Below, in pieces: positions 2,221 through 29,867 of a DNA stretch of 32,963 nucleotides. Position 1 is the first letter of the stretch; each line of letters begins with the position of its first letter. Below the pieces are notes generated by a model. It was not told where the DNA came from and searched no databases. It saw nothing but the letters and a program-made list of their open reading frames with translations. The stretch is from a virus: positions 1 to 32,963 of IMG/VR virus record IMGVR_UViG_3300025674_000194; one strand, written 5' to 3'. The position numbers were made by a program, and so were the translations under genes.

Positions 2221-5031
2221 ATGGCTATTATACCAAAAGGTGATGAGAAGTTCTACGATGCACAAGGTAATCTGCCTTCGTACATTCAAGATGACTTGGA
2301 TAGAGTCGTAGCTGAAGGTAATATCCCTGAGAACCCAGACAACTATGTTATAAGTGGTGGTAAAGGTAACTGGACTATTACTTGGGACGATGGCACTACT
2401 GCACAGACTACTGTTCGTAACCCTTTAAGTGCTGCTAACGATGCTCGTCTTTTGGCTAATGCTTTCGAAGCCAGACAACAAACAACTGCAGCTACTCAAA
2501 CTACTGCAACTACAACAACTGGAACTTCAGGTGCTGGAACAACAGATACTACGACTACAGCTGCCCCTGTAACAACTTCTAGTGCAGTTGCAACTCAGCC
2601 TATTGTGATTGATGAAAGTGTAGCTGGTGGTGACTTTACTCCTGTTCAACCTTCTACAGATGATGAAAGTGTAGCTGGTGGTGACTTTACTCCTGTTCAA
2701 TCTTCTACAGATGATGAAAGTGTAGCTGGTGGTGACTTTACTCCTGTTCAACCTTCTACAGATGTAGCACAGGTAGGTGCAGGGCAGGTAGCTCCTATTG
2801 ACCCTAATAAACCTCAAACAGTTGTACAACAAGTTGCACCTGTAAACTATACCGATCAAACTCAAACACAACAAGCAGTTACTCAAGCAGGTACCTCTGC
2901 TTTACCATTAGGAACTGCAGGTATATCTGCCTTACCTGATCAAGTTACATACAGAACACAGTATGCGGGTACTCAAGGTGCTGTACCACAAACACTTGTC
3001 ACTACAGTTCCAGGATCAGGTGCTACTTATAACCCTACACAAATGGGTTATCAGACAGTTACATACGAAAATAAAACCACAGGTCAGACTACACCTGTAA
3101 CAGAGTTTAATGGTCAGCCTATGACCTATGTACCACCTGGATTTACTAAGGTACAAGCTATGGCAGAAGGTGGTTCAGTGGGAGAAATGTCTCCTGATGT
3201 GGTGCTTGCTAGAAGATTCCTAGGCTTTACTGGTCCATCAGAACAACTTACAAACTTCCTTGCTGCTAACCCTTCAGCAGCTGCCCGTATGGGTAAGTAC
3301 CAACAGGCTATGGCTGGTATGGCTAGAAACAGAGTTGGTGCACAAGAAGGTGTTGCTGGAACTACACTAGAAGATTTTCAGAAGATGCAGCAGAATCTGA
3401 TCACCCAGACTATGCAACCAATGCAGTCTCCTATTGCACAGATTCAACCAACTGCACCTGACTTTATTCCTGTAGATGCAGGTATGGCTACACCTGTTTC
3501 ACCTATGGCAGAAACTGCTACTGTAGGTACAGTAGAGCAAGCTGATATGCCAACAACTATGACCCCAGGTTCTATGACTGCTACGACAGTGACTCCTGCT
3601 GTACAAGCTGAGACAGCTGCTACCACAGCTCAGGTAGGTACTGTATCACCTCAAGCACAGGTCACTGGACAACAACAGCTTACCACTTCTGTTACAGGCA
3701 TGGAGGCTGCTCAAGGTACAGCCACTATGGTTAATGCCCCTGCAGCTAGAGAGATTCAAGAGGGTGAGCTTATCTCTGGTGCAGCAGATGCAGAAAAAGC
3801 AGCTACGTTTACAGAACAAATTGATGCAGCAACAGCTACTCCAACTAAACAAGCTACTGTCGCAGGACAGCTAGAAGGTTTAATGGCTCAGTTTGAAGGT
3901 GGTAATACACCAGCATGGGCTGCTGGCTCTATGCGTACAGCAATGCAGACACTAGCTGCTCGTGGCTTAGGTGCTTCATCTCTTGCAGGTCAAGCAGTTA
4001 TTCAAGCTGCAATGGAAGCAGCTCTACCTATTGCGCAAATTGATGCGCAAACACAGGCACAATTTGAATCACAGAACTTGTCAAACAGACAACAACGTGC
4101 TATGCTTGCTGCACAACAAAGAGCACAGTTCCTAGGTCAAGAGTTTGACCAAGCATTCCAAGCTCGTGTACAAAACTCAGCACGTATTGGTGACATTGCC
4201 AATATGAACTTTACTGCAGAGCAGAACATTGCACTTGAAAATTCTCGTGCAGCTAACACCATGAACCTAAACAACTTGTCTAACAGACAGGCTATGACAA
4301 TGGCTGAAGCTGCTGCATTGTCGCAGTTAGATATGGCTAACCTAAACAATCGTCAGCAAGCTGCAGTACAAAATGCTCAGAACTTCTTGCAGATGGAAAT
4401 GCAGAACCTGTCTAATGCACAGCAGACAGAGTTGTTTAAAGCACAACAGAATATCCAAGCTATCTTTACTGACCAAGCTGCAGAGAATGCTGCTGCACAG
4501 TTTAATGCTACAAGTGAAAACCAAACTGATCAATTCTTTGCTAACCTATCTGCACAGGTTGGACAATTTAATGCAGCACAAACAAATGCTATGGATCAGT
4601 TTAATGTAAACAGTGCAAATGCTATGCGTCAGTTTAACTCTGAGATCCAACAACAACGTGATCTGTTTAACGCACAGAATGGACTTGTAGTTGCTCAGGC
4701 TAACGCACAGTGGAGACAAAACATTGCCACACTGAACACTGCTGCACAAAATGAAAGTAACCTAGACTTTGCTAAAACTATCAATGCACTGACTTCTAAG
4801 AACTTAGATGAGATCTGGCAACGTGAACGTGATATTATGTCGTTTGCATTTAGTGCTGACCAATCTGCTATGGATAGGGCACTTCAGATTATCCTAGCTG
4901 ATAAAGACTTAGAGGTAGCTAGAGAAAAACTTGCCTCAGTAGAAGATGCTACAGATACAGAGTTAGCAATGAGATTCTTGTTTGGTACAAGTCCTGGTGG
5001 TATTCTTAAATCATTAAATCCGTTTGGATAA
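2221..5031 (+). CDS. Gln/Ala/Thr-rich fibrous virion protein
   Basis: This 936-residue protein has strongly biased composition. Residues about 85-300 are Thr/Gln/Val-rich and contain three tandem copies of a 17-residue unit (DESVAGGDFTPVQPSTD) starting at residue 131. Residues about 600-850 consist of repeating Asn/Gln/Ala stretches such as LSNRQQ, NLNNRQQAA, QFNA and NAMDQFN, typical of long helical or coiled-coil structure. A MAEGGSVGEMSP stretch sits near residue 315; similar Gly-Gly-x-Val pieces recur in marine phage proteins. No catalytic motif is visible. It is followed at 12 bases by the tail lysozyme gene, which suggests an internal virion or tail structural role. That role is inferred from size, composition and position. 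Confidence 0.75.
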   Translation: MAIIPKGDEKFYDAQGNLPSYIQDDLDRVVAEGNIPENPDNYVISGGKGNWTITWDDGTTAQTTVRNPLSAANDARLLANAFEARQQTTAATQTTATTTTGTSGAGTTDTTTTAAPVTTSSAVATQPIVIDESVAGGDFTPVQPSTDDESVAGGDFTPVQSSTDDESVAGGDFTPVQPSTDVAQVGAGQVAPIDPNKPQTVVQQVAPVNYTDQTQTQQAVTQAGTSALPLGTAGISALPDQVTYRTQYAGTQGAVPQTLVTTVPGSGATYNPTQMGYQTVTYENKTTGQTTPVTEFNGQPMTYVPPGFTKVQAMAEGGSVGEMSPDVVLARRFLGFTGPSEQLTNFLAANPSAAARMGKYQQAMAGMARNRVGAQEGVAGTTLEDFQKMQQNLITQTMQPMQSPIAQIQPTAPDFIPVDAGMATPVSPMAETATVGTVEQADMPTTMTPGSMTATTVTPAVQAETAATTAQVGTVSPQAQVTGQQQLTTSVTGMEAAQGTATMVNAPAAREIQEGELISGAADAEKAATFTEQIDAATATPTKQATVAGQLEGLMAQFEGGNTPAWAAGSMRTAMQTLAARGLGASSLAGQAVIQAAMEAALPIAQIDAQTQAQFESQNLSNRQQRAMLAAQQRAQFLGQEFDQAFQARVQNSARIGDIANMNFTAEQNIALENSRAANTMNLNNLSNRQAMTMAEAAALSQLDMANLNNRQQAAVQNAQNFLQMEMQNLSNAQQTELFKAQQNIQAIFTDQAAENAAAQFNATSENQTDQFFANLSAQVGQFNAAQTNAMDQFNVNSANAMRQFNSEIQQQRDLFNAQNGLVVAQANAQWRQNIATLNTAAQNESNLDFAKTINALTSKNLDEIWQRERDIMSFAFSADQSAMDRALQIILADKDLEVAREKLASVEDATDTELAMRFLFGTSPGGILKSLNPFG
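2611..2763 (+). repeat. Three tandem 51-bp in-frame repeats
   Basis: Three abutting 51-bp units (2611-2661, 2662-2712, 2713-2763) each encode DESVAGGDFTPVQPSTD, with Ser instead of Pro at the 14th residue of the middle copy. Near identity at the DNA level, including third positions, indicates recent duplication, so copy number may vary between relatives. Confidence 0.95.
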
Positions 5032-22006: not shown

Positions 22007-22124
22007 TCTCTTCTGTCTCCTCACCTACTTTAAATGTTACAGTGACATAACCGAACTCATCCGTAACCCATACCTCGTGAATTGGACAAGTACGAAGCCA
22101 CTCCCAAAACTCTTCTCTAGTCAT
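21993..22124 (-). CDS. Very small acidic hypothetical protein
   Basis: A 43-residue frame fills the space after the integrase: MTREEFWEWLRTCPIHEVWV, then DEFGYVTVTFKVGEETEENEET. The start overlaps the integrase stop as ATGA and AGGAG lies upstream within the integrase. The acidic tail and beta-strand pattern look like a small binding protein. Unrecognised. Confidence 0.65.
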   Translation of the reverse strand: MTREEFWEWLRTCPIHEVWVTDEFGYVTVTFKVGEETEENEET

Positions 22125-23005
22125 TCTCTTTGTCTCCTATCTAGTGCAGCTCTCGCAGTCTTCAAGCTGAACTTGTTGTAAGGGTTGAGGCTCTGTACAT
22201 TCTTGTGTCCAGATACCGATTGAATTGCAAGATGATCTACCCCACTCTCAATCATCTGCACAATGGCAGTCTTTCTCAGGTCACCCACTCTGAGGTCATC
22301 AGGTAGCCCTGCAGTGTCCTTAACTTCTCCAAGCAGGGTGATCATCTGAGCAATCGTTAGCGGCCTGTAGGCGTTGTCCTGTGGCCTGTGGTGAGGTACT
22401 ACGTACGGTTGGAAGTCCCAGTCCTCCTTCTGCTGCTTGAGCATGGTGATTAGATTGTCAGGTATTGGTAGCTCAACGGTAGCACCACGCTTACTCTGTG
22501 TGATTGTTACCACACCCTCGTCTAAGTCTAGGTTATCCCAAGTGAGGTTGCGTATGTCTACTGGACGTTGACCCCACTCGTAACACATCAGGACAATCAG
22601 TCCAATGTTTCTCCAATTAAAGTTGGTAAAGGCAGTGTCAAGAAACCTCATGACCTGCTCGTGTGTCCAGACCACAGACCGTGGCTCACTGGTGCGCTTA
22701 CGTACTCGTGACATAGGGTTGACCGTGAGCTTCTCCATTGTGATCAGGTAGTTCATTACGACAGAGAAGATACGTGCATTGTGATTTGCATTGGCAGTAG
22801 ATGTTTCCGACTCCCAAGTGTCATAGATCTCAGTGCATAATGGTACGTTGATGTTGTGGATCGAGATGTTGCCCAAAGTTCTACCATTTACAGACATACG
22901 ACAGAAAGAATTAAGTGCTGTCTCGTAACCCTTCTGTGAGGAAGCTGCAAGAGAAGCGAACTGTCTGGTATGTAGGTATTCATTTACGGCTGTCTTGAAT
23001 CTCAT
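22121..23005 (-). CDS. int: Tyrosine recombinase (integrase)
   Basis: From the ATG at 23005 (AGGA nearby) the protein has 294 residues. An N-terminal SAM-like core-binding domain (about 1-100) precedes a catalytic domain with Arg147 (YEWGQRPVDI), Lys172 (SKRGATVELP), the DLRKT box with Arg244, His267 (SVSGHKN) and nucleophile Tyr276 (NPYNKFS). The His usually found three residues before the second Arg is Gly here, a variation seen in some active members. There is no long N-terminal arm-binding domain, so it is a simple recombinase. It follows tRNA-Arg directly and opens the replication operon, suggesting integration, or concatemer resolution, is possible. Target site unknown. Confidence 0.9.
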   Translation of the reverse strand: MRFKTAVNEYLHTRQFASLAASSQKGYETALNSFCRMSVNGRTLGNISIHNINVPLCTEIYDTWESETSTANANHNARIFSVVMNYLITMEKLTVNPMSRVRKRTSEPRSVVWTHEQVMRFLDTAFTNFNWRNIGLIVLMCYEWGQRPVDIRNLTWDNLDLDEGVVTITQSKRGATVELPIPDNLITMLKQQKEDWDFQPYVVPHHRPQDNAYRPLTIAQMITLLGEVKDTAGLPDDLRVGDLRKTAIVQMIESGVDHLAIQSVSGHKNVQSLNPYNKFSLKTARAALDRRQRE

Positions 23006-23049
23006 ATCTTTCCTATCCAGTGAGAACAATCGTCATGTGGATCATCCAT
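23002..23049 (-). CDS. Candidate 15-residue leader peptide of the integrase
   Basis: AGGAG (6 bases upstream) precedes an ATG at 23049 that opens a 15-codon frame, MDDPHDDCSHWIGKI. Its TGA overlaps the integrase ATG (ATATGA). This layout is typical of a coupled leader that controls translation of the next gene. Too short to prove by sequence alone. Confidence 0.45.
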   Translation of the reverse strand: MDDPHDDCSHWIGKI

Positions 23050-23065: not shown

Positions 23066-23142
23066 TGGCCCACCCCGCAGGACTCGAACCTGCAACCCCC
23101 TGATTAGAAGTCAGGTGCTCTGTCCAGTTGAGCTAGGGGTGG
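23066..23142 (-). tRNA. tRNA-Arg (UCU)
   Basis: A complete cloverleaf can be drawn: acceptor CCACCCC/GGGGTGG with a G discriminator and encoded CCA, D stem GCTC/GAGC, anticodon stem CCTGA/TCAGG with loop CTTCTAA, and T arm GCAGG-TTCGAGT-CCTGC. The anticodon UCU reads AGA (and perhaps AGG). AGA is common in the plus-strand virion genes, so the tRNA may support their translation. The first pair is C1-G72. It lies 60 bp downstream of a promoter and next to the integrase, so it may also relate to an attachment site. Confidence 0.93.
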
Positions 23143-23145
23143 CGA

Positions 23146-23214
23146 ACCTAAAGTTATACTTAAAGTATTAATTATTTCTAGAAGAAATATTAAATACCTT
23201 AAGTTACTTTAAGT
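23146..23214. repeat. Four ACYTWAAGT elements, left control region
   Basis: Four copies of the 9-bp near-palindrome occur at 23146 (ACCTAAAGT), 23158 (ACTTAAAGT), 23196 (ACCTTAAGT) and 23206 (ACTTTAAGT). Pairs are 12 and 10 bp apart. They fill the space between a minus-strand promoter and tRNA-Arg. The same element recurs six times at 29433-29537. Confidence 0.75.
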
Positions 23215-23215
23215 A

Positions 23216-23244
23216 TACATAAGGCTTGTCGTTTAGCCTGTCAA
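23216..23244 (-). promoter_or_regulatory. Sigma70-type promoter for tRNA-Arg/integrase/replication operon
   Basis: TTGACA (23239-23244) lies 17 bp from TATGTA (23216-23221), reading on the minus strand. The -35 is preceded by ACCCC, as at the right promoter at 29389. ACTTAAAGT elements begin 1 bp downstream of the -10. It would drive tRNA-Arg and, by read-through, the whole 22-10.8 kb arm. Confidence 0.7.
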
Positions 23245-23248
23245 GGGG

Positions 23249-24211
23249 TCACCCAAAATATTTTTTACTAACACGGGCAGTGTAGTCATCCATGTAACTT
23301 GAGTAGGCACTCACATCGTCTATGTCGCAGTCTTCCATCAAGCCATAGGCGGTGTAACCGTAGCCGTCAAGTAATTCTGCGATCTTGTGAGGGTAGTCGA
23401 TGACTAGTTGCTCAAGCTGACAAACATTTTCTTCATCAACTTTGTTACTATACTTAGACGAGTATCCCCAAGTGTCCTCGACAATAGATGGGTCACGCTT
23501 GAACACTAACTGTGTCCAGTCAGCTAGACACAAGGCAGTCAGCAAAGTGTCAGCAAAATCAAGGTCTTGCGTCTCGTTTACACCATGCTGTCCATAGTAT
23601 CCGACACTGATGTTGGTACACTCAGACACGATACCAGAGTACTCATTGCTGTCAGTGTAAGAGCCACCGTCATCAGCTTCTAGTTGTGGTAGATTGAGTG
23701 CCTCGGCAAAGGACTTGGCGAATGCATCTGATGCAGTACGCATACCCATCTGGTGTGTGATCACAGACTTGTCACCGTAACGATCAAAGCTGATCACTGC
23801 GTCAAGTTGGTCAAGCCACTCGGGGTAATCTGTGATGAGGGCACGACTACCTTTGCACCCGACTTCTTCAGCTGCATGTACAACATACACACCCTCAACA
23901 CCTTCTTCAATCATACCAAGCATAAGCCATACACCAGTGGTACAGTCAGCACCAAGGCAGTTGGATTCCTTGCTGTTGGCTACAGACACTACGTCATTGG
24001 TGACGACTAGCTTCTGCATACCGTCAGTCTTGTGGACTGTGTCATGGTGTGACGTAAAGCACAGGTTAGGCTTGTCACCCACGATGTGGATGTAGTTGCC
24101 ATGATCATCTGGTCTACCGAACGTAGGTTCGAGAAACCGTTTGCAAAATTCTCGTTGCGTTAGGCTACCCTCTGGGCGTTTGTAACGCAGCATTTCAATT
24201 AAACTATACAT
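23249..24211 (-). CDS. M20/M28-type zinc peptidase-like protein
   Basis: This 320-residue protein has the di-zinc exopeptidase signature in order: H55-x-D57 (SHHDTVH), D89 in LGADC, the catalytic/metal pair E115-E116 (AAEEVGCKGS), D143 (SFDRYG) and H209 (YYGQHGVNE). The usual GADD is GADC here. It is somewhat short and lacks an obvious dimerisation domain. Such enzymes cleave small peptides or acyl-amino acids in the cytoplasm; there is no signal peptide. It is the last gene of the 27.9-23.2 kb operon, overlapping the Cys-rich protein gene by 8 bases. Its substrate and its use to a phage are unknown. Confidence 0.8.
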   Translation of the reverse strand: MYSLIEMLRYKRPEGSLTQREFCKRFLEPTFGRPDDHGNYIHIVGDKPNLCFTSHHDTVHKTDGMQKLVVTNDVVSVANSKESNCLGADCTTGVWLMLGMIEEGVEGVYVVHAAEEVGCKGSRALITDYPEWLDQLDAVISFDRYGDKSVITHQMGMRTASDAFAKSFAEALNLPQLEADDGGSYTDSNEYSGIVSECTNISVGYYGQHGVNETQDLDFADTLLTALCLADWTQLVFKRDPSIVEDTWGYSSKYSNKVDEENVCQLEQLVIDYPHKIAELLDGYGYTAYGLMEDCDIDDVSAYSSYMDDYTARVSKKYFG

Positions 24212-25793
24212 CTAGTTCTAACTCCTCTTGAACTTCTTCCCATTCATTATTATCATTTTTCTGCCAGATACCTGGGTGTGAATCTAGCTCGTACTTGGAT
24301 ACAACGTCACCGTCAGTCAGTGTACACATAACCTCGTTGGGGTACAGCTCACAATCCCAATCAGATGTGAAGTACTCGTCAATGTTATCGGGTGAGATAT
24401 AAGTGTCATCACACTCACAGTACACAACGTCATCTGTGTGCCAGTACTCGTCATCGGTACACATGATGAATACGTCACCGTCATGAATGATACCCTCGTA
24501 GACTTGCACGGCCTCGTGTTGACCGCCATAGCCGACACGGTAACAGACAATGGTCTGATCTACGTGTACAGTCTCTTGCCAGTAGTCACAGTACACATGT
24601 TCGTCATAGTAGCATGACTCACAGTAGTGCTCACTGGTGTGCTCAGAGTACCAGTACTCGTCCTCGGACAAGTTCTCGTTACACTGGGAACATGATGTGT
24701 GATGACCGCCAAGGATACCTTGATAGACACTGGCATCAATCTCGCCACATCTGGCTACGACAAGATGATCACCCATATCATCTAGTGATTGCGGTGTCAA
24801 GTCTAGGTATGGGCCGACAAAGCCATCGTCATACTCAACACGCTTGAGCTTGGCACCGATCCATGAGGCATCGTGACCAGTACGAGCACCCATCTGTGCT
24901 AGGCGTTCCTCAATACAGTCAATGGCTTGCTCAGATACACCGTACACTGGCCCTGCTTGTGGTGGTACATTGTTGGTGTATACAACACAACGGCCAGCCA
25001 CCAAGTCGTTTTGATCAAGGGCATAGACGATGGTAAAGTCACCACTTGCGTACGCCTCAGCAGGATGCATAGGAAGGTGGTCGAAGTCGTAACGCATACA
25101 GCTATGGGCAAGATGCTTGCGGTATGGCGTAGTGTCGATGTTCTCGTTGGGTGATTGCTTACCTGCATAGGCATCTTTGAAATGCTCTGCTTCTTTGGAT
25201 ACATGAATTGTAAACTCACGGGGTGCGAACTCCTGTAGATACTGATCATTGAGTTGAATGATTGTCTTGTGGTCAAGCTCGGGGAACATCAGACTGAATG
25301 CACGAGCAGGTTTCATAGCAGTGACACGGTCATTGTCACGATGCTCAAGTGATTGCCACACAGAAATCTTGGGGTGAAACTTCTCAGAACGTCGAGGGCC
25401 GAAGGCACACAGGCGGTATCTGATCTTGCAGGTCAGGTGGCTCTCACTACCAAGCAAGTTAAGTACTTGTTTTTCAAGCCATTTCTGCAAACGACTGTCT
25501 GCCATTTCCCACATGTTGAGGTGATCCCATTCACCCCATGCACGAAGCACAGGGTCAGTCTCGTTGACATCCTCGGCATAGACTTTCTTGACAACAAAGC
25601 CGTTGAGGTGTGGGTGTACGACATAATGCTTGTCCTCACCAACCCACACGAAACCTGCGGCAGGTTTGTTGCCCTCGTTGTCTAAGAAAGACACAGGCTC
25701 GAAGCTGTACGGTTGGTACGGCACAAGCACAAAGGGATAGTTACGTTCACGAAATGCGTCAACGTCTACAGTACGAATAGTATAAGCAACCAT
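24204..25793 (-). CDS. Large acidic protein with C-terminal cysteine-rich region
   Basis: From the ATG at 25793 (GGAGG 7 bases upstream) the product is 529 residues. The N-terminal 370 residues have ordinary globular sequence. The last 160 contain many cysteines in C-x2-C pairs (CSQCNENL, CESCYYDEHVYC), next to Asp, Tyr and Trp, suggesting two or more zinc-binding modules, then a very acidic tail. Codon use is GC-richer than in the virion block. No enzymatic motif was recognised. It sits between a conserved MNIF-type protein and the zinc peptidase, all stop-start coupled, so they may act together early in infection. Function unknown. Confidence 0.7.
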   Translation of the reverse strand: MVAYTIRTVDVDAFRERNYPFVLVPYQPYSFEPVSFLDNEGNKPAAGFVWVGEDKHYVVHPHLNGFVVKKVYAEDVNETDPVLRAWGEWDHLNMWEMADSRLQKWLEKQVLNLLGSESHLTCKIRYRLCAFGPRRSEKFHPKISVWQSLEHRDNDRVTAMKPARAFSLMFPELDHKTIIQLNDQYLQEFAPREFTIHVSKEAEHFKDAYAGKQSPNENIDTTPYRKHLAHSCMRYDFDHLPMHPAEAYASGDFTIVYALDQNDLVAGRCVVYTNNVPPQAGPVYGVSEQAIDCIEERLAQMGARTGHDASWIGAKLKRVEYDDGFVGPYLDLTPQSLDDMGDHLVVARCGEIDASVYQGILGGHHTSCSQCNENLSEDEYWYSEHTSEHYCESCYYDEHVYCDYWQETVHVDQTIVCYRVGYGGQHEAVQVYEGIIHDGDVFIMCTDDEYWHTDDVVYCECDDTYISPDNIDEYFTSDWDCELYPNEVMCTLTDGDVVSKYELDSHPGIWQKNDNNEWEEVQEELELDV

Positions 25794-25794
25794 G

Positions 25795-26286
25795 TTAGTT
25801 CCTCCATTCTGGTTCCTCACCCCAACGCCATGTCAGGGTTATGTTACGTTCTTTCCATCTGTCGTTCATGTACATGCGGTATGCCTCATGCACATCAGAA
25901 ACGTCTGAGTAATCAACACCACGTTCCATATTACGAGCACAGTTTGCGAAGTCAGTCAAGTCCTCATCAGGAAATTGACCATACTCTGCGTAGTGTTGAA
26001 AGGCAGGAATAAGTTCAGCCGACTTGTGTGCGCCTGACTTTTGATTAAACAAGGCACTCATGTGCTTGATAAGCCACATGAAATTGCCACGAGTAGCCCT
26101 AGCCCATATACTGCATGGGTGGTTGAGATACGCCACACGGTATACAGGTAGGGATGTGTCAGGGCATAAAGTCCTGATTGCGGTGGACAACATCTGCGCA
26201 CTTTCCAAGATCATCTTGTTCTTGCGTATGTCATCCAACCACAATGCTGACTGCTCTGGACATTCCGATAGAGCAAATATGTTCAT
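25795..26286 (-). CDS. Conserved phage protein of the MNIF...KMILESAQ type
   Basis: The 163-residue protein begins MNIFALSECPEQSALWLDDI and continues RKNKMILESAQMLSTAIR. I recognise this opening from phage proteins that share the pattern (K)MILE-x-AQ-L-ST; their function is not settled as far as I know. The middle contains HPCSIWARATRGNFMWLIKH and the C-terminus is Trp/Arg-rich. Conserved His, Cys, Trp and Glu residues would allow an enzyme. The gene overlaps the tandem-HTH gene by 4 bases and is followed by the Cys-rich protein. Confidence 0.7.
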   Translation of the reverse strand: MNIFALSECPEQSALWLDDIRKNKMILESAQMLSTAIRTLCPDTSLPVYRVAYLNHPCSIWARATRGNFMWLIKHMSALFNQKSGAHKSAELIPAFQHYAEYGQFPDEDLTDFANCARNMERGVDYSDVSDVHEAYRMYMNDRWKERNITLTWRWGEEPEWRN

Positions 26287-26771
26287 TGTTGAATAGCCTC
26301 CATGATTGTTTCTTTCAACTGTTTGAACTCACGTTCTAGCACTGCATACTGCAACTTGATTTCCATCAACTCACCCTGCAACTGACCATTCTCTGCTTTA
26401 GTCATCACAAAGTTACGGCGTTCACGTTTTGTTACAGTTGGTTGCAAACCCTCAGTGTACAGATTGTACCCACGAGACTTGTTACGATAGCCCAACTCTC
26501 TACGCCATCTGCACAGTGTATCGTTGCTGACACCAAACTTAGCCACGGTTTCAACACCAGTATGGTTGTCATAATACTGGCAAACCTCGTGTCTGAAGCT
26601 GAGAAGGTGCTTGTTACCACCTTGACCTTTGAATACACCTGCTTTGAGTGCCCACTTAGATGCGTTTGGCTTAGGTATTCCAAACTTCTGTACAGTTTCC
26701 TCTGTAGTGTGAGACTTGTAGAACTCAACAACCTGTGCTTTGAACTCATTTGTATACACTTTACGACCCAT
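26283..26771 (-). CDS. Tandem helix-turn-helix protein with C-terminal coiled coil
   Basis: This 162-residue protein contains two similar segments, about residues 8-48 (NEFKAQVVEFYKSHTTEETV, then QKFGIPKPNASKWALKAG) and 58-98 (FRHEVCQYYDNHTGVETVAK, then FGVSNDTLCRWRRELGY). Each looks like the HTH found in IS3-type OrfA and other transposase-derived regulators. Residues about 120-160 form a leucine/glutamate-rich coiled coil, probably for dimerisation. No catalytic DDE domain follows, so it is not a working transposase. A perfect AGGAGG lies before the ATG. It is a good candidate for a phage transcription regulator acting on the palindrome arrays nearby; that link is a hypothesis. Confidence 0.8.
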   Translation of the reverse strand: MGRKVYTNEFKAQVVEFYKSHTTEETVQKFGIPKPNASKWALKAGVFKGQGGNKHLLSFRHEVCQYYDNHTGVETVAKFGVSNDTLCRWRRELGYRNKSRGYNLYTEGLQPTVTKRERRNFVMTKAENGQLQGELMEIKLQYAVLEREFKQLKETIMEAIQQ

Positions 26772-26787
26772 TTTAACCTCCTACAGT

Positions 26788-26919
26788 TTACAATTTGGGT
26801 TCCAATTTTACATCCACAAAGCCCTTTGACTTCATGAATGCCACCATTTCACCGCCACGTTCTTGTGGCAATGAACATATGCGTACACCATCTACGCATA
26901 ACCACACATAACTATACAA
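26788..26919 (-). CDS. Very small hypothetical protein, probable TTG start
   Basis: A 43-residue frame fills the gap after the 102-residue gene: (M)YSYVWLCVDGVRICSLPQ, then ERGGEMVAFMKSKGFVDVKL. I favour the TTG at 26919 with AGGTGAG upstream; the GTG at 26907 is the alternative. It looks like a compact strand-strand-helix-strand protein. It ends 16 bases before the HTH gene. Unrecognised. Confidence 0.55.
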   Translation of the reverse strand: MYSYVWLCVDGVRICSLPQERGGEMVAFMKSKGFVDVKLEPKL

Positions 26920-27220
26920 GGGATCTCACCTGTCTAGTCACACTATAGTCTGCACACACCCACCCACCAGTGAATGACATTTCATGCAGACCAAAATTCG
27001 GATCAGCATTTTTAAGTTTGCCCACGCAATCCTCAAGGCTAGACCCGATCATCTGGACAGGTACAGCTGTCACACCATTGTGATACACCCCGTCGAGAAT
27101 ATAATAATTTGTTACATCAAGATCACGCACTTCTTGCATGATTTTGTTTCCTAATGTGTGATACCAACGCACCCACTTTTTGCGTCTGCGTTCACGTTCT
27201 ACCTCATCCTCATTTTCCAT
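26912..27220 (-). CDS. Hypothetical early protein
   Basis: This 102-residue protein begins with a charged helix (MENEDEVERERRRKKWVRWY) and continues with an alpha/beta region (YYILDGVYHNGVTAVPVQMI...). No membrane segment or motif was recognised. It overlaps a 37-residue gene by 11 bases at its start. It belongs to the tightly packed early operon. Confidence 0.7.
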   Translation of the reverse strand: MENEDEVERERRRKKWVRWYHTLGNKIMQEVRDLDVTNYYILDGVYHNGVTAVPVQMIGSSLEDCVGKLKNADPNFGLHEMSFTGGWVCADYSVTRQVRSLV

Positions 27221-27323
27221 TGTTCATCAACCTTTCCGCAATACGCTTAGTGGATGTGATGATGATAACTTTACCGTCATCACCATACAGCACCCACTTG
27301 TTACCCGATTGCACTAGTCGCAT
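27210..27323 (-). CDS. Very small hypothetical protein
   Basis: Thirty-seven codons: MRLVQSGNKWVLYGDDGKVI, then IITSTKRIAERLMNNGK. A beta-hairpin followed by a basic helix is plausible. The start is 4 bases after the preceding stop and the TGA lies inside the next gene's start. Too small to assign. Confidence 0.6.
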   Translation of the reverse strand: MRLVQSGNKWVLYGDDGKVIIITSTKRIAERLMNNGK

Positions 27324-27326
27324 AGA

Positions 27327-27854
27327 TTATGCGGCAGCTTGTGTTGGCTTTGCAGATGCCATCGCTTGCACTTGTGCGAAAGATACACCCATTTCTTTGG
27401 CCATTTTCGCCATGTAGGTGTGCAGCTGCTCAACACGTTGATCGTGAGACTTTTCGGGCTTGGCCGCAGTCAGTACAGGGAATGCCGCCTTGAATGCATC
27501 GGACTTGACACCCACCTTAGATGCAGCAAGAGTGCGGACACCTTCAAGCACATCATGGTTAAGCCCACCGTTTTTACCCACCTTGCACGATGCTTTACCA
27601 TCCTTGAAGGTAAACTTCACATCAGACAATGCGACAGCCAAGATACGCTTGAGGGGCGCACTGAATTGAGATAGCTTGTAACCATCCTCAATCTTGTACG
27701 AACCAAACGACTTGCCATTGGTGAAGGCAATAAGGGCGTACATTGGCTTGTTATTCTTTTCGCCAAACTGTTCGAGTGCATACTCGACAGCCTTGAAAAA
27801 ACCATACTCTGCACCACGTGCATTGCTTACCCATTCTTTTACATAATCAGTCAT
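27327..27854 (-). CDS. First gene of the early operon, hypothetical
   Basis: From the ATG at 27854 (AAAGGAT upstream) the product is 175 residues. It begins MTDYVKEWVSNARGAEYGFF and ends in an Ala/Lys/Gln-rich helix (VEQLHTYMAKMAKEMGVSFA...). The centre contains FGSYKIEDGYKLSQFSAPLK and a Lys/Gly-rich stretch (FKDGKASCKVGKNGGLNHD). The longer frame to 27929 adds 25 residues that lack a start signal. It is basic overall and may bind nucleic acid. As the promoter-proximal gene it is probably made first and in quantity. Not recognised. Confidence 0.75.
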   Translation of the reverse strand: MTDYVKEWVSNARGAEYGFFKAVEYALEQFGEKNNKPMYALIAFTNGKSFGSYKIEDGYKLSQFSAPLKRILAVALSDVKFTFKDGKASCKVGKNGGLNHDVLEGVRTLAASKVGVKSDAFKAAFPVLTAAKPEKSHDQRVEQLHTYMAKMAKEMGVSFAQVQAMASAKPTQAAA

Positions 27855-27931
27855 CTCATTTATCCTTTCATGCTTTGAGATTGCCAGACAATAAGACACA
27901 CCACACGGGTGCGCCTTACACGCTGGCAACG

Positions 27932-27949
27932 TGTAACCTAGGTGTTACA
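27932..27949. repeat. TGTAAC/GTTACA inverted repeat
   Basis: TGTAAC (27932-27937) and GTTACA (27944-27949) form an inverted repeat with a 6-base spacer, about 80 bp upstream of the first early gene. It is related to the TGTTACA palindromes at 29044 and 29275 but with the halves in the opposite order. Confidence 0.45.
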
Positions 27950-28500
27950 TTGTAAGCAAGCATTGCGCATTGCCTACCACCGTTCACGGTATCCTATGCT
28001 TATTGGCTATCACCATCCCGAAAGATATTTACCAGACCGTCAACTATATGTTGTGGCGTGGTGGTTATCGGTGCTATCAACACCCACCAAAAAGGCTTAT
28101 GTTTGTATCGGATTGTATGTCTTAATTCGGATCGCATTGCTAAATCAATGTTGCCATCCTAGGGGGAAACCATACTGAAAACCCCTTTCAACTTGTATTT
28201 AAACTAGGCGCAAAGTTTACATGCGTAAAACCATGATCGGGATTGTCAAACCCTAGGTCTAGCCCTAGTCGAAAACCAGTAATGTCAAATAGCGTGCCTC
28301 AGTACAATGCCCCTTGGCTAGTGGCGGGGTATCAAGCGATCTGGTCAACGTATGCGCCATTTCGACTTGATGACCTACCCTAACCCGTACCCAAAAGATA
28401 CTCAAGCACTATAAAGGATAGGTAAAAACTATACCTTTGAGACTAGACCTATCCGAAAGTATAGGTGGCCTATTTTGTGGATAATAGCTCGGGCGCACGG

Positions 28501-28521
28501 GCGTGTGCGCATACACGTGCG
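28501..28521. other. Alternating purine-pyrimidine tract
   Basis: Twenty-one bases alternate strictly between purine and pyrimidine (GCGTGTGCGCATACACGTGC and one more G). Such tracts can adopt Z-DNA under negative supercoiling. It lies within an unusually GC-rich 50-bp patch of the control region. Confidence 0.5.
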
Positions 28522-28631
28522 GGTGCGGGTGTAACCCGAAAGGATCGTCAATAACTATTACGGATAGGGTAGACTATACCAAAGGATAGATGTTCTCTGT
28601 CAATATACTATTTCGGATAGAAGTTAGTGTT

Positions 28632-28691
28632 TTGTTCTATGTTTGTTCTTTTTACCAACTGGTCAAAACTAGAACGAAAGTAGAACAAACA
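28632..28691. repeat. Mirrored pairs of TTGTTCT / AGAACAA elements
   Basis: TTTGTTCT occurs at about 28632 and again 10 bp on. In the opposite orientation AGAACGAA and AGAACAAA occur about 11 bp apart at 28671 and 28682. The inner arms TGTTTGTTCT (28640-28649) and AGAACAAACA (28682-28691) are perfectly complementary over 10 bp. This could bind a dimer pair or a recombinase, or form a cruciform. Confidence 0.6.
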
Positions 28692-28730
28692 GAGGGTAAA
28701 CAGTGGACAAATAGTGTCCAAATAGGGGGA

Positions 28731-28740
28731 ACCGATCGGT
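28731..28740. repeat. ACCGATCGGT perfect palindrome
   Basis: A 10-bp perfect palindrome in the control region, 40 bp after the mirrored TTGTTCT elements. One copy only was noticed, so function is uncertain. Confidence 0.35.
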
Positions 28741-29043
28741 CAGGTAGGGTGGGTGCTGGAAAGCCGAAAACGCACTCTACGGGCCTATTTTCGGGGTGTA
28801 GGATAGGTGAAGGATAGGTTCGCTATCCGTATTCCCCCGCAGTATATCCAAAGGGATAGGGTCAGCTATCCGAAAGGGTAGGACTATACGAATGGATAGG
28901 CTCAGGCTATACCAAAGGATATACGTCTAGTACAAAAGGATAGGTAGGCTATACCAAAGGATAGGTTAGGTATCCATAGGGGTAGGGTGGGGTGGTATTA
29001 TATATAATGAGCTATACTGGGGGATACATAACTTACCCCAAAG

Positions 29044-29058
29044 TGTTACAATGTAACA
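29044..29058. repeat. TGTTACA-A-TGTAACA palindrome
   Basis: A perfect 15-bp palindrome with a central A. A second copy with a 3-base centre lies at 29275-29291. Confidence 0.6.
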
Positions 29059-29274
29059 AAAAGTAGTAGTTCGTCTATCCTTTTGGGTATATCATAATCC
29101 CCTATTGTATTAGAAACATAATAAAATCAGATAGTTAGCTACGACAAAAGTATTAATGCAGCTATACTTTCGGATCACCCGACCTATCCGAAGGGGGTGC
29201 ATGGGCCAGCGGGGGTATAGCCGTACGTATATATGCCCAATGACAGAGATGGGGTTTTTTCAAGCCTCACTTTT

Positions 29275-29291
29275 TGTTACAATTTGTAACA
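29275..29291. repeat. TGTTACA-ATT-TGTAACA palindrome
   Basis: The two 7-base arms are perfect complements around ATT. It lies about 100 bp upstream of the right promoter, next to the TGTGATCACA pair, and may be an operator shared with the copy at 29044. Confidence 0.6.
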
Positions 29292-29306
29292 TTACGTTAC
29301 TCATTT

Positions 29307-29346
29307 TGTGATCACATCGTGTTATTCAGTTATTTTTGTGATCACA
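29307..29346. promoter_or_regulatory. Two TGTGATCACA operators spaced 30 bp
   Basis: TGTGATCACA occurs at 29307-29316 and 29337-29346, the second extended to a 14-bp perfect palindrome TTTGTGATCACAAA. Centres are exactly 30 bp apart, close to three helical turns, so two bound dimers would face the same way. They lie 43-82 bp upstream of the -35 of the right promoter. Confidence 0.6.
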
Positions 29347-29388
29347 AATTATTTATCAATAAAAATAAAATATTTTTTGCCTTACCCC

Positions 29389-29418
29389 TTGACTCGGGGG
29401 CACGAAGTATTATATAAT
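29389..29418 (+). promoter_or_regulatory. Sigma70-type promoter for the rightward lysis/late arm
   Basis: TTGACT (29389-29394) and a perfect TATAAT (29413-29418) are 18 bp apart. ACCCCTTGAC around the -35 is shared with the left promoter at 23239. ACTTAAAGT elements begin 14 bp after the -10. The nearest gene starts at 29616, leaving a leader of about 190 bases. Confidence 0.75.
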
Positions 29419-29432
29419 ACATTAAGTATTAT

Positions 29433-29537
29433 ACTTAAAGTAACTTCGTGTGACTTAAAGTGCACTTAAAGTAACCTAAAGTATCTATTAACTTTTATAT
29501 ATTTATAGTTATTATATACTTTAAGTATACTTTAAGT
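29433..29537. repeat. Six ACYTWAAGT elements, right control region
   Basis: Copies start at 29433, 29453 and 29464 (ACTTAAAGT), 29474 (ACCTAAAGT), 29518 and 29529 (ACTTTAAGT). Spacings are 20, 11, 10, 44 and 11 bp, near multiples of one helical turn. The first lies in TATACTTAAAGTAACTT, a 17-bp string found also on the minus strand at the left control region. Confidence 0.8.
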
Positions 29538-29584
29538 ACCTTCTTTGGACGAATAAAGTTTTTTCTGTCGTCCCATTTAAAGTA

Positions 29585-29612
29585 TTGACTTCAAAATTTC
29601 CTACGGTATAAC
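29585..29612 (+). promoter_or_regulatory. Possible second promoter
   Basis: TTGACT (29585-29590) and TATAAC (29607-29612) are 16 bp apart, directly before the ATG at 29616. Transcription from here would start at or inside that gene, so it would give a leaderless message or serve only the genes beyond it. Confidence 0.35.
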
Positions 29613-29615
29613 TAT

Positions 29616-29867
29616 ATGCAAAGACGAAACATCTATTCCTCCGACAAAGTACTAGAAGAGTTCTATAAGGCTCTTGCAAGTAAGGACGAAGGTAGACTCC
29701 GTAGGGTACACATACCAAGATCTGATGTATTCTACGTAAGAGAAGCTATTTTTCAAGACACTGGAGTTAAATACTCACTAGATAGAGTAGAAAGAGCTAT
29801 GTACCTTGAAGGTATGCTAAGTAAATACGATGTTTTTGAACCAAATAGAAAGAGGGACTGGGAGTAA
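29616..29867 (+). CDS. Hypothetical protein, first gene of rightward arm
   Basis: This 83-residue basic, soluble protein begins MQRRNIYSSDKVLEEFYKAL and contains a helical core with VRRVHIPRSD-like and DRVERAMYLEGML segments. No ribosome-binding site precedes the ATG, and there is no other in-frame start before the upstream stop. It is followed without a gap by the holin-like gene (TAA-ATG). No family was recognised. Being first in the arm, it could be regulatory or a lysis component. Confidence 0.65.
   Translation: MQRRNIYSSDKVLEEFYKALASKDEGRLRRVHIPRSDVFYVREAIFQDTGVKYSLDRVERAMYLEGMLSKYDVFEPNRKRDWE

Follow-up and report, generated by a model that had tools for sequence, protein, structure and literature searches.

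In phage lambda, CI and Cro bind 17-bp operators, OL and OR, which are placed at and upstream of the promoters, with the CI gene between them. Ribbon-helix-helix repressors such as MetJ and omega read short operator sites arranged in tandem, head-to-tail, at intervals of about one helical turn. In the Bacillus phage GIL01 a complex of LexA and gp7 controls both P1 (early/replication) and P3 (late) (PMC6182141), and in the Cluster A mycobacteriophages the repeated short operators known as stoperators are asymmetric and spread over the genome (PMC9283540, PMC6550527). HK022 and lambda each have a pair of diverging operons whose leaders carry similar elements, put and nut respectively, for which RNA hairpins are predicted (PMC9378689). 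For the HMO-2011-type phages, which are among the dominant marine virus groups, promoters and repressors are nowhere mentioned in the paper on the diversity of the group (PMC9038755), and nothing relevant was found, judging from titles and abstracts, in the literature on HMO-2011 and promoters.

The DNA analysed here is a 33-kb virus fragment (32,963 bp, hereafter the window) which matches the Roseobacter phages CRP-345, CRP-603, CRP-207, CRP-9, CRP-13, and CRP-1. These phages are relatives of the Puniceispirillum phage HMO-2011, and the window is a fragment of a marine podovirus of that type. Its leftward genes comprise a tRNA-Arg, an integrase, ThyX, a helicase/primase, a polymerase and a ribonucleotide reductase, and its rightward genes p83, a putative lysis cassette and the structural genes; between the two arrays described below lies a further operon (23249-27929), also reading leftward. 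The features referred to are as follows.

22121..23029, minus strand: tyrosine integrase, left arm
23066..23142, minus strand: tRNA-Arg (TCT), first gene of the left arm
23146..23214, no strand: left array, four ACYTWAAGT sites as two pairs around a dyad spacer
23167..23195, no strand: AT-rich dyad spacer of the left array, with a ATTTCTTCTAGAAAT core
23216..23221, minus strand: putative -10 of P_L, TATGTA, weak, with a spacer of 17; read from the sequence only and not returned by the consensus scan
23239..23244, minus strand: -35 hexamer of P_L, TTGACA, inside the conserved ACCCCTTGACA; aligned in relatives
26283..26771, minus strand: tandem-HTH protein, the binder proposed in the original prediction; not conserved with the arrays
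29389..29418, plus strand: P_R, TTGACT-18-TATAAT, from sequence and consensus scan; conserved in relatives
29401..29408, plus strand: CACGAAGT, in the untranscribed -35/-10 spacer of P_R; partner of ACTTCGTG
29419..29537, no strand: right array, opening with a degenerate site ACATTAAGT that adjoins the -10 and continuing with six ACYTWAAGT sites (four, a 44-bp step, two)
29443..29450, plus strand: ACTTCGTG, downstream partner of the spacer element CACGAAGT
29585..29612, plus strand: second putative promoter, P2, TTGACT-16-TATAAC, 3 nt before the ATG of p83
29616..29867, plus strand: p83, a conserved 83-aa protein, first gene of the late arm and candidate reader of the sites

Exact ACYTWAAGT sites on the plus strand begin at 23146, 23158, 23196, and 23206 in the left cluster and at 29433, 29453, 29464, 29474, 29518, and 29529 in the right. 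These ten sites form two clusters only, the 17 strand matches in the 32,963 bp comparing with 2.05 expected (0/100 shuffles), and local models matched for composition never gave four or six sites in regions of that size (20,000 simulations each). The clusters of four and six described in the original prediction are thus borne out at exact coordinates, each just downstream of a TTGAC promoter, and a motif search returned none elsewhere, either in the window or in the mapped relatives. The string given there as common to both arrays is also present, as TATACTTAAAGTAACTT at 29430-29446 (plus strand) and 23217-23201 (minus strand). The claim of regular spacing holds in part; the start-to-start distances are 12, 38, and 10 bp on the left and 20, 11, 10, 44, and 11 bp on the right, so that neighbouring sites do lie 10-12 bp apart, but the arrays are phased only approximately, since neither central gap (38 or 44 bp) fits a whole number of helical turns cleanly.

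Both arrays are preceded by ACCCCTTGAC, at 29384-29393 on the plus strand and 23249-23240 on the minus strand, and the two promoters diverge. No other sigma-70-type match in the surrounding 7 kb is as good as P_R (11/12), and of the 60 distinct p83 loci 55 gave a promoter. In the window, the TATAAT of P_R runs directly into ACATTAAGT, and at P_L a single nucleotide separates the weak -10 from the first site. Of 38 right arrays, 22 have their first site, two mismatches being allowed, abutting the -10 with no gap, and in 38 of the 55 promoters of the set selected by p83 the start of the first general site is no more than 17 nt away from the -10. As the sites lie over or near the predicted start of a near-consensus promoter, repression would fit better than activation, the other readings being those of activator or silencer sites.

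A P2-like promoter is present in 39 of the 60 distinct p83 loci; in the window it ends 3 nt before the start codon of p83, which suggests that a p83 mRNA made from it would be leaderless. In five loci (L047, L049, L050, L054, and L056) a ACTTAAAGT site lies inside the P2 promoter. Between the right array and P2, TTTTTTCTGTCGTCC (29559-29574) is kept, as TTTTCTGTCGT or similar, in nearly all p83 loci read. An unusual 1.4-kb non-coding stretch at 27930-29380 holds many CTATCCGAAAGGATAG-like dyad copies at 28400-29200, along with paired GTGATCAC and TGTTACA-type palindromes; similar GTGATCAC elements precede p83 in CRP-1 and CRP-345.

Viral contigs were scanned with a pattern of promoter plus site and, separately, with a pattern of the site doublet, and many relatives were recovered. 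Where relatives of the window's genes were found, a cluster usually lay next to p83, or next to the integrase on the downstream side of the M28 peptidase gene. The tandem doublet occurs in 27 of 29 related records, against no match for a reversed control pattern, and in those carriers that were mapped the sites are confined to two places, one upstream of the replication module and the other upstream of p83, the first late gene. As these first sets of records had been picked by the motif or by the tandem-HTH gene, the test was repeated on loci chosen by p83 alone. About half of these carry ACTTWAAGT arrays, and many others have a similar promoter followed by palindromic repeats of an altered motif, such as ACTTAAGT or ACTNNAGT, recognised by eye. 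In a test independent of the motif, the 8-mers of the right array of 20 p83-chosen loci served as bait for the 8.5-9.7 kb upstream, and the best window fell at the integrase/replication boundary in 18; no second array was returned in the other two (L241 and L242). These two have p83 proteins about 80% identical and a right array with no clear second copy near the integrase. Summed over the loci, own left-right pairs scored 487, whereas permuted pairings averaged 329 and never exceeded 428 (P about 5e-5).

The cultured phages follow the same pattern, CRP-9 and CRP-13 each having a motif of its own that is common to its two sites. When the CRP-13 genome was scanned for ACYNNNRGT, the two densest windows were its two array sites (7 and 6, the next having 2); in CRP-9 the array sites scored 5 and 3, the lower figure being equalled by one unrelated window. 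In CRP-1 the late promoter carries yet another variant, and the left side has one site at most. These three phages, with their differing motifs, have a common host strain, FZCC0023. In a 293-kb contig (L118), with none of the window's genes found nearby, five ACTTTAAGT-type sites stand in 11-bp steps at 3824-3876.

A second kind of constraint is seen within P_R, where an 8-bp element of the -35/-10 spacer is the reverse complement of an element about 40 bp downstream. The two vary jointly in relatives, as CACGAAGT/ACTTCGTG, CACAGAGT/ACTCTGTG, CATAGAGT/ACTCTATG, and CTCAGAGT/ACTCTGAG, and over the right promoters of 35 loci the mean score of an element with its own partner was 6.17, compared with a permuted maximum of 5.49. 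Since one arm of the pair lies in untranscribed DNA, the constraint cannot act through RNA, and this co-variation indicates that at least part of the constraint acts on DNA. Correction of imperfect palindromes by template switching could be an alternative source of the co-variation.

The arrays are a real and conserved regulatory element; the sites, their restriction to two places, the conserved layout and the sharing of a drifting motif within each genome are all read directly. As the motif drifts between phages yet stays common to the two promoters of each, one trans-acting regulator probably reads both, and the single regulator originally proposed for the two arms is thereby well supported on comparative grounds. 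Its source is most likely the phage itself, because CRP-1, CRP-9, and CRP-13 share a host strain and differ in motif. We therefore propose, with moderate confidence, that both clusters are operator arrays for one phage-encoded DNA-binding regulator of transcription, most likely a cooperative repressor. We infer that a protein binds the arrays, that its binding represses, and that transcription starts where the consensus predicts. The repressor would bind cooperatively to palindromic sites of 8-9 bp, in this case ACTTWAAGT, that follow one another at intervals of roughly a helical turn. The predicted start of a host sigma-70-type promoter lies at or close to the beginning of each array, which reaches some 100 bp further downstream. 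With the sites occupied, the left promoter (tRNA, integrase and replication genes) and the right promoter (p83, lysis and structural genes) would be blocked together, whilst the operon between the arrays would stay free, and release of the repressor would switch both arms on.

Systems of this kind, in which one regulator acts at replication and late promoters, have precedents in GIL01 and lambda; for this phage group, judging by the searchable literature, the novelty lies in the arrangement, the drift of the motif and the lack of a recognised regulator. Like lambda, the locus has several palindromic operators, presumably cooperative, at a pair of diverging promoters that enclose early genes; however, the 9-bp sites run downstream from the start site, arrays are also found in phages lacking an integrase, and the window has no recognised CI- or Cro-like gene. 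The likeness to GIL01 lies in one repressor complex acting on both the replication and the late promoter, and in the tandem boxes which GIL01 has inside its late promoter, whereas GIL01 makes use of the host LexA, on which its lysogeny depends, and the motif of the present group differs within one host; the arrays here are also longer, and their readers are candidates only. The sites resemble stoperators in being repeated short phage operators, but are palindromic and confined to two places. Whatever the regulator, the two conserved arrays are the DNA that it must read; they predict which operons switch together and offer a bait for its isolation, and the differing motifs on one host strain amount to a natural experiment in the co-evolution of operator and regulator, with possible cross-immunity.

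As to which protein reads the sites, no family other than p83 occurs in every one of the 20 array-bearing genomes or fragments compared, but several of these records are fragments, which biases the comparison against distant core genes such as those for capsid and terminase, and p83 is thus a candidate only. The window p83 has no homolog in Pfam, PHROGs or the PDB sequences, and no DNA-binding homology was found there. Nor is it singled out by the correlation of protein with array divergence (Spearman 0.42), because the integrase (0.62) and helicase (0.61) correlate better; moreover, closely similar p83 proteins adjoin differing motifs. By co-occurrence it is nevertheless the best candidate, at what we would put as somewhat under an even chance. 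The arrays share with the operators of MetJ and omega the head-to-tail placing of short sites at about one helical turn, although no ribbon-helix-helix protein was detected here and the resemblance of p83 to the pattern of Arc is one noted by eye only. Going further, p83 may be a new class of DNA-binding master regulator acting on mirror-image arrays at replication and late promoters, its drifting motif sorting phages into groups of regulatory compatibility, akin to immunity, even where there is no integrase; this is possible but rather doubtful. The protein family in question is small, has no known relatives and belongs to an ocean phage group that ranks among the most abundant.

Two other candidates for the reader were rejected. 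The tandem-HTH protein, put forward in the original prediction, does not serve as a general reader; its gene was missing, by HMM search, from six genomes in which both arrays are present and the interval between them is covered in full (G012, G013, G014, G016, CRP-9, and CRP-13), and its divergence is uncorrelated with that of the arrays (Spearman about 0.00). The product of the first early gene (p200) was likewise rejected because the first inter-array genes fall into several unrelated families.

The dyads invite a reading at the level of RNA, in which the transcripts of both arms would start with a long hairpin that protects the mRNA or antiterminates, as with put and nut, which are likewise elements in the 5' leaders of two diverging operons. 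Both leaders do fold better than all 200 shuffles (z -3.4 and -5.3, the latter for the left leader); however, dyads must fold, and a hairpin needs no equal repeats at 10-12 bp. RNAalifold on the left alignment returned only the pair of 9-bp sites, with one compensatory change and a positive covariation term, and neither compensatory support beyond the sites nor a conserved structure of the put/nut kind was found in the left-leader alignment. In right arrays the 5' arm often has variants with an unpaired C (ACCTAAAGT; 13 C compared with 5 G variants). In contrast to put and nut, the palindromic repeats here run from the predicted start site and vary jointly with promoter DNA that is not transcribed. 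A hairpin as the sole explanation is thus disfavoured, and we consider an RNA leader element unlikely.

The sites might instead be iteron-like and mark origins of replication primed by transcription, for they flank an AT-rich dyad behind a promoter, and the GC-skew minimum falls near the right array. The skew does not discriminate, because its switch coincides with the change in gene direction; no initiator gene was recognised among the inter-array genes examined, and there are two such elements, at the promoters of the replication and late operons, rather than one. An origin is accordingly an improbable explanation.

The original prediction also entertained a switch of the lysogeny type. Such a CI-like switch, with the tandem-HTH protein as immunity repressor, has in its favour that a regulator-like gene sits between two diverging promoters, that the integrase adjoins a tRNA in the window phage, and that HMO-2011-type phages include integrase carriers, of which the distant relative CRP-3 integrates experimentally at a tRNA-Met site (PMC6918029, PMC9038755). 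It is not supported, however, since both arrays persist where no integrase homolog was found, in the complete genomes of CRP-9 and CRP-13 and in contig G016 (contig G009 also lacks one, but is cut near the site and was left out of the count). No conserved repressor gene was found to travel with the operators, the tandem-HTH gene being absent from six two-array genomes and diverging independently of the arrays as described above, and no ACTTWAAGT clusters were recognised in the parts of the CRP-3 genome read. A search of 84,980 species genomes found no p83-bearing prophage, as judged from the sizes and titles of the six matching contigs; all six came from metagenome bins, and their lengths of 24-63 kb suggest that they are viral contigs and not prophages. 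Where lysogeny is present the arrays may serve it, yet they are not specific to it, and a CI-like switch is very improbable.

That a host regulator such as CtrA (TTAA-N7-TTAA) reads the sites, or that they are arm sites of the integrase, is scarcely credible and both were rejected, for although some neighbouring sites happen to form TTAA-N7-TTAA (e.g. 29518/29529) and the left array lies beside the integrase, the TTAA spacing is not fixed, as site spacing varies from 9 to 13 bp, CRP-1, CRP-9, and CRP-13 carry different motifs in the same strain, the second array is about 6 kb away from the integrase, and arrays are kept where the integrase is lacking.

The neighbourhood of the left array has two further features. 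The gene at 23249-24211 of the window encodes a phage M28-family peptidase (PHROG 4191), which stands beside the left array in many relatives. In locus L050 the tRNA-Arg gene is apparently truncated past the anticodon arm and continues directly into the integrase region, near the integrase start.
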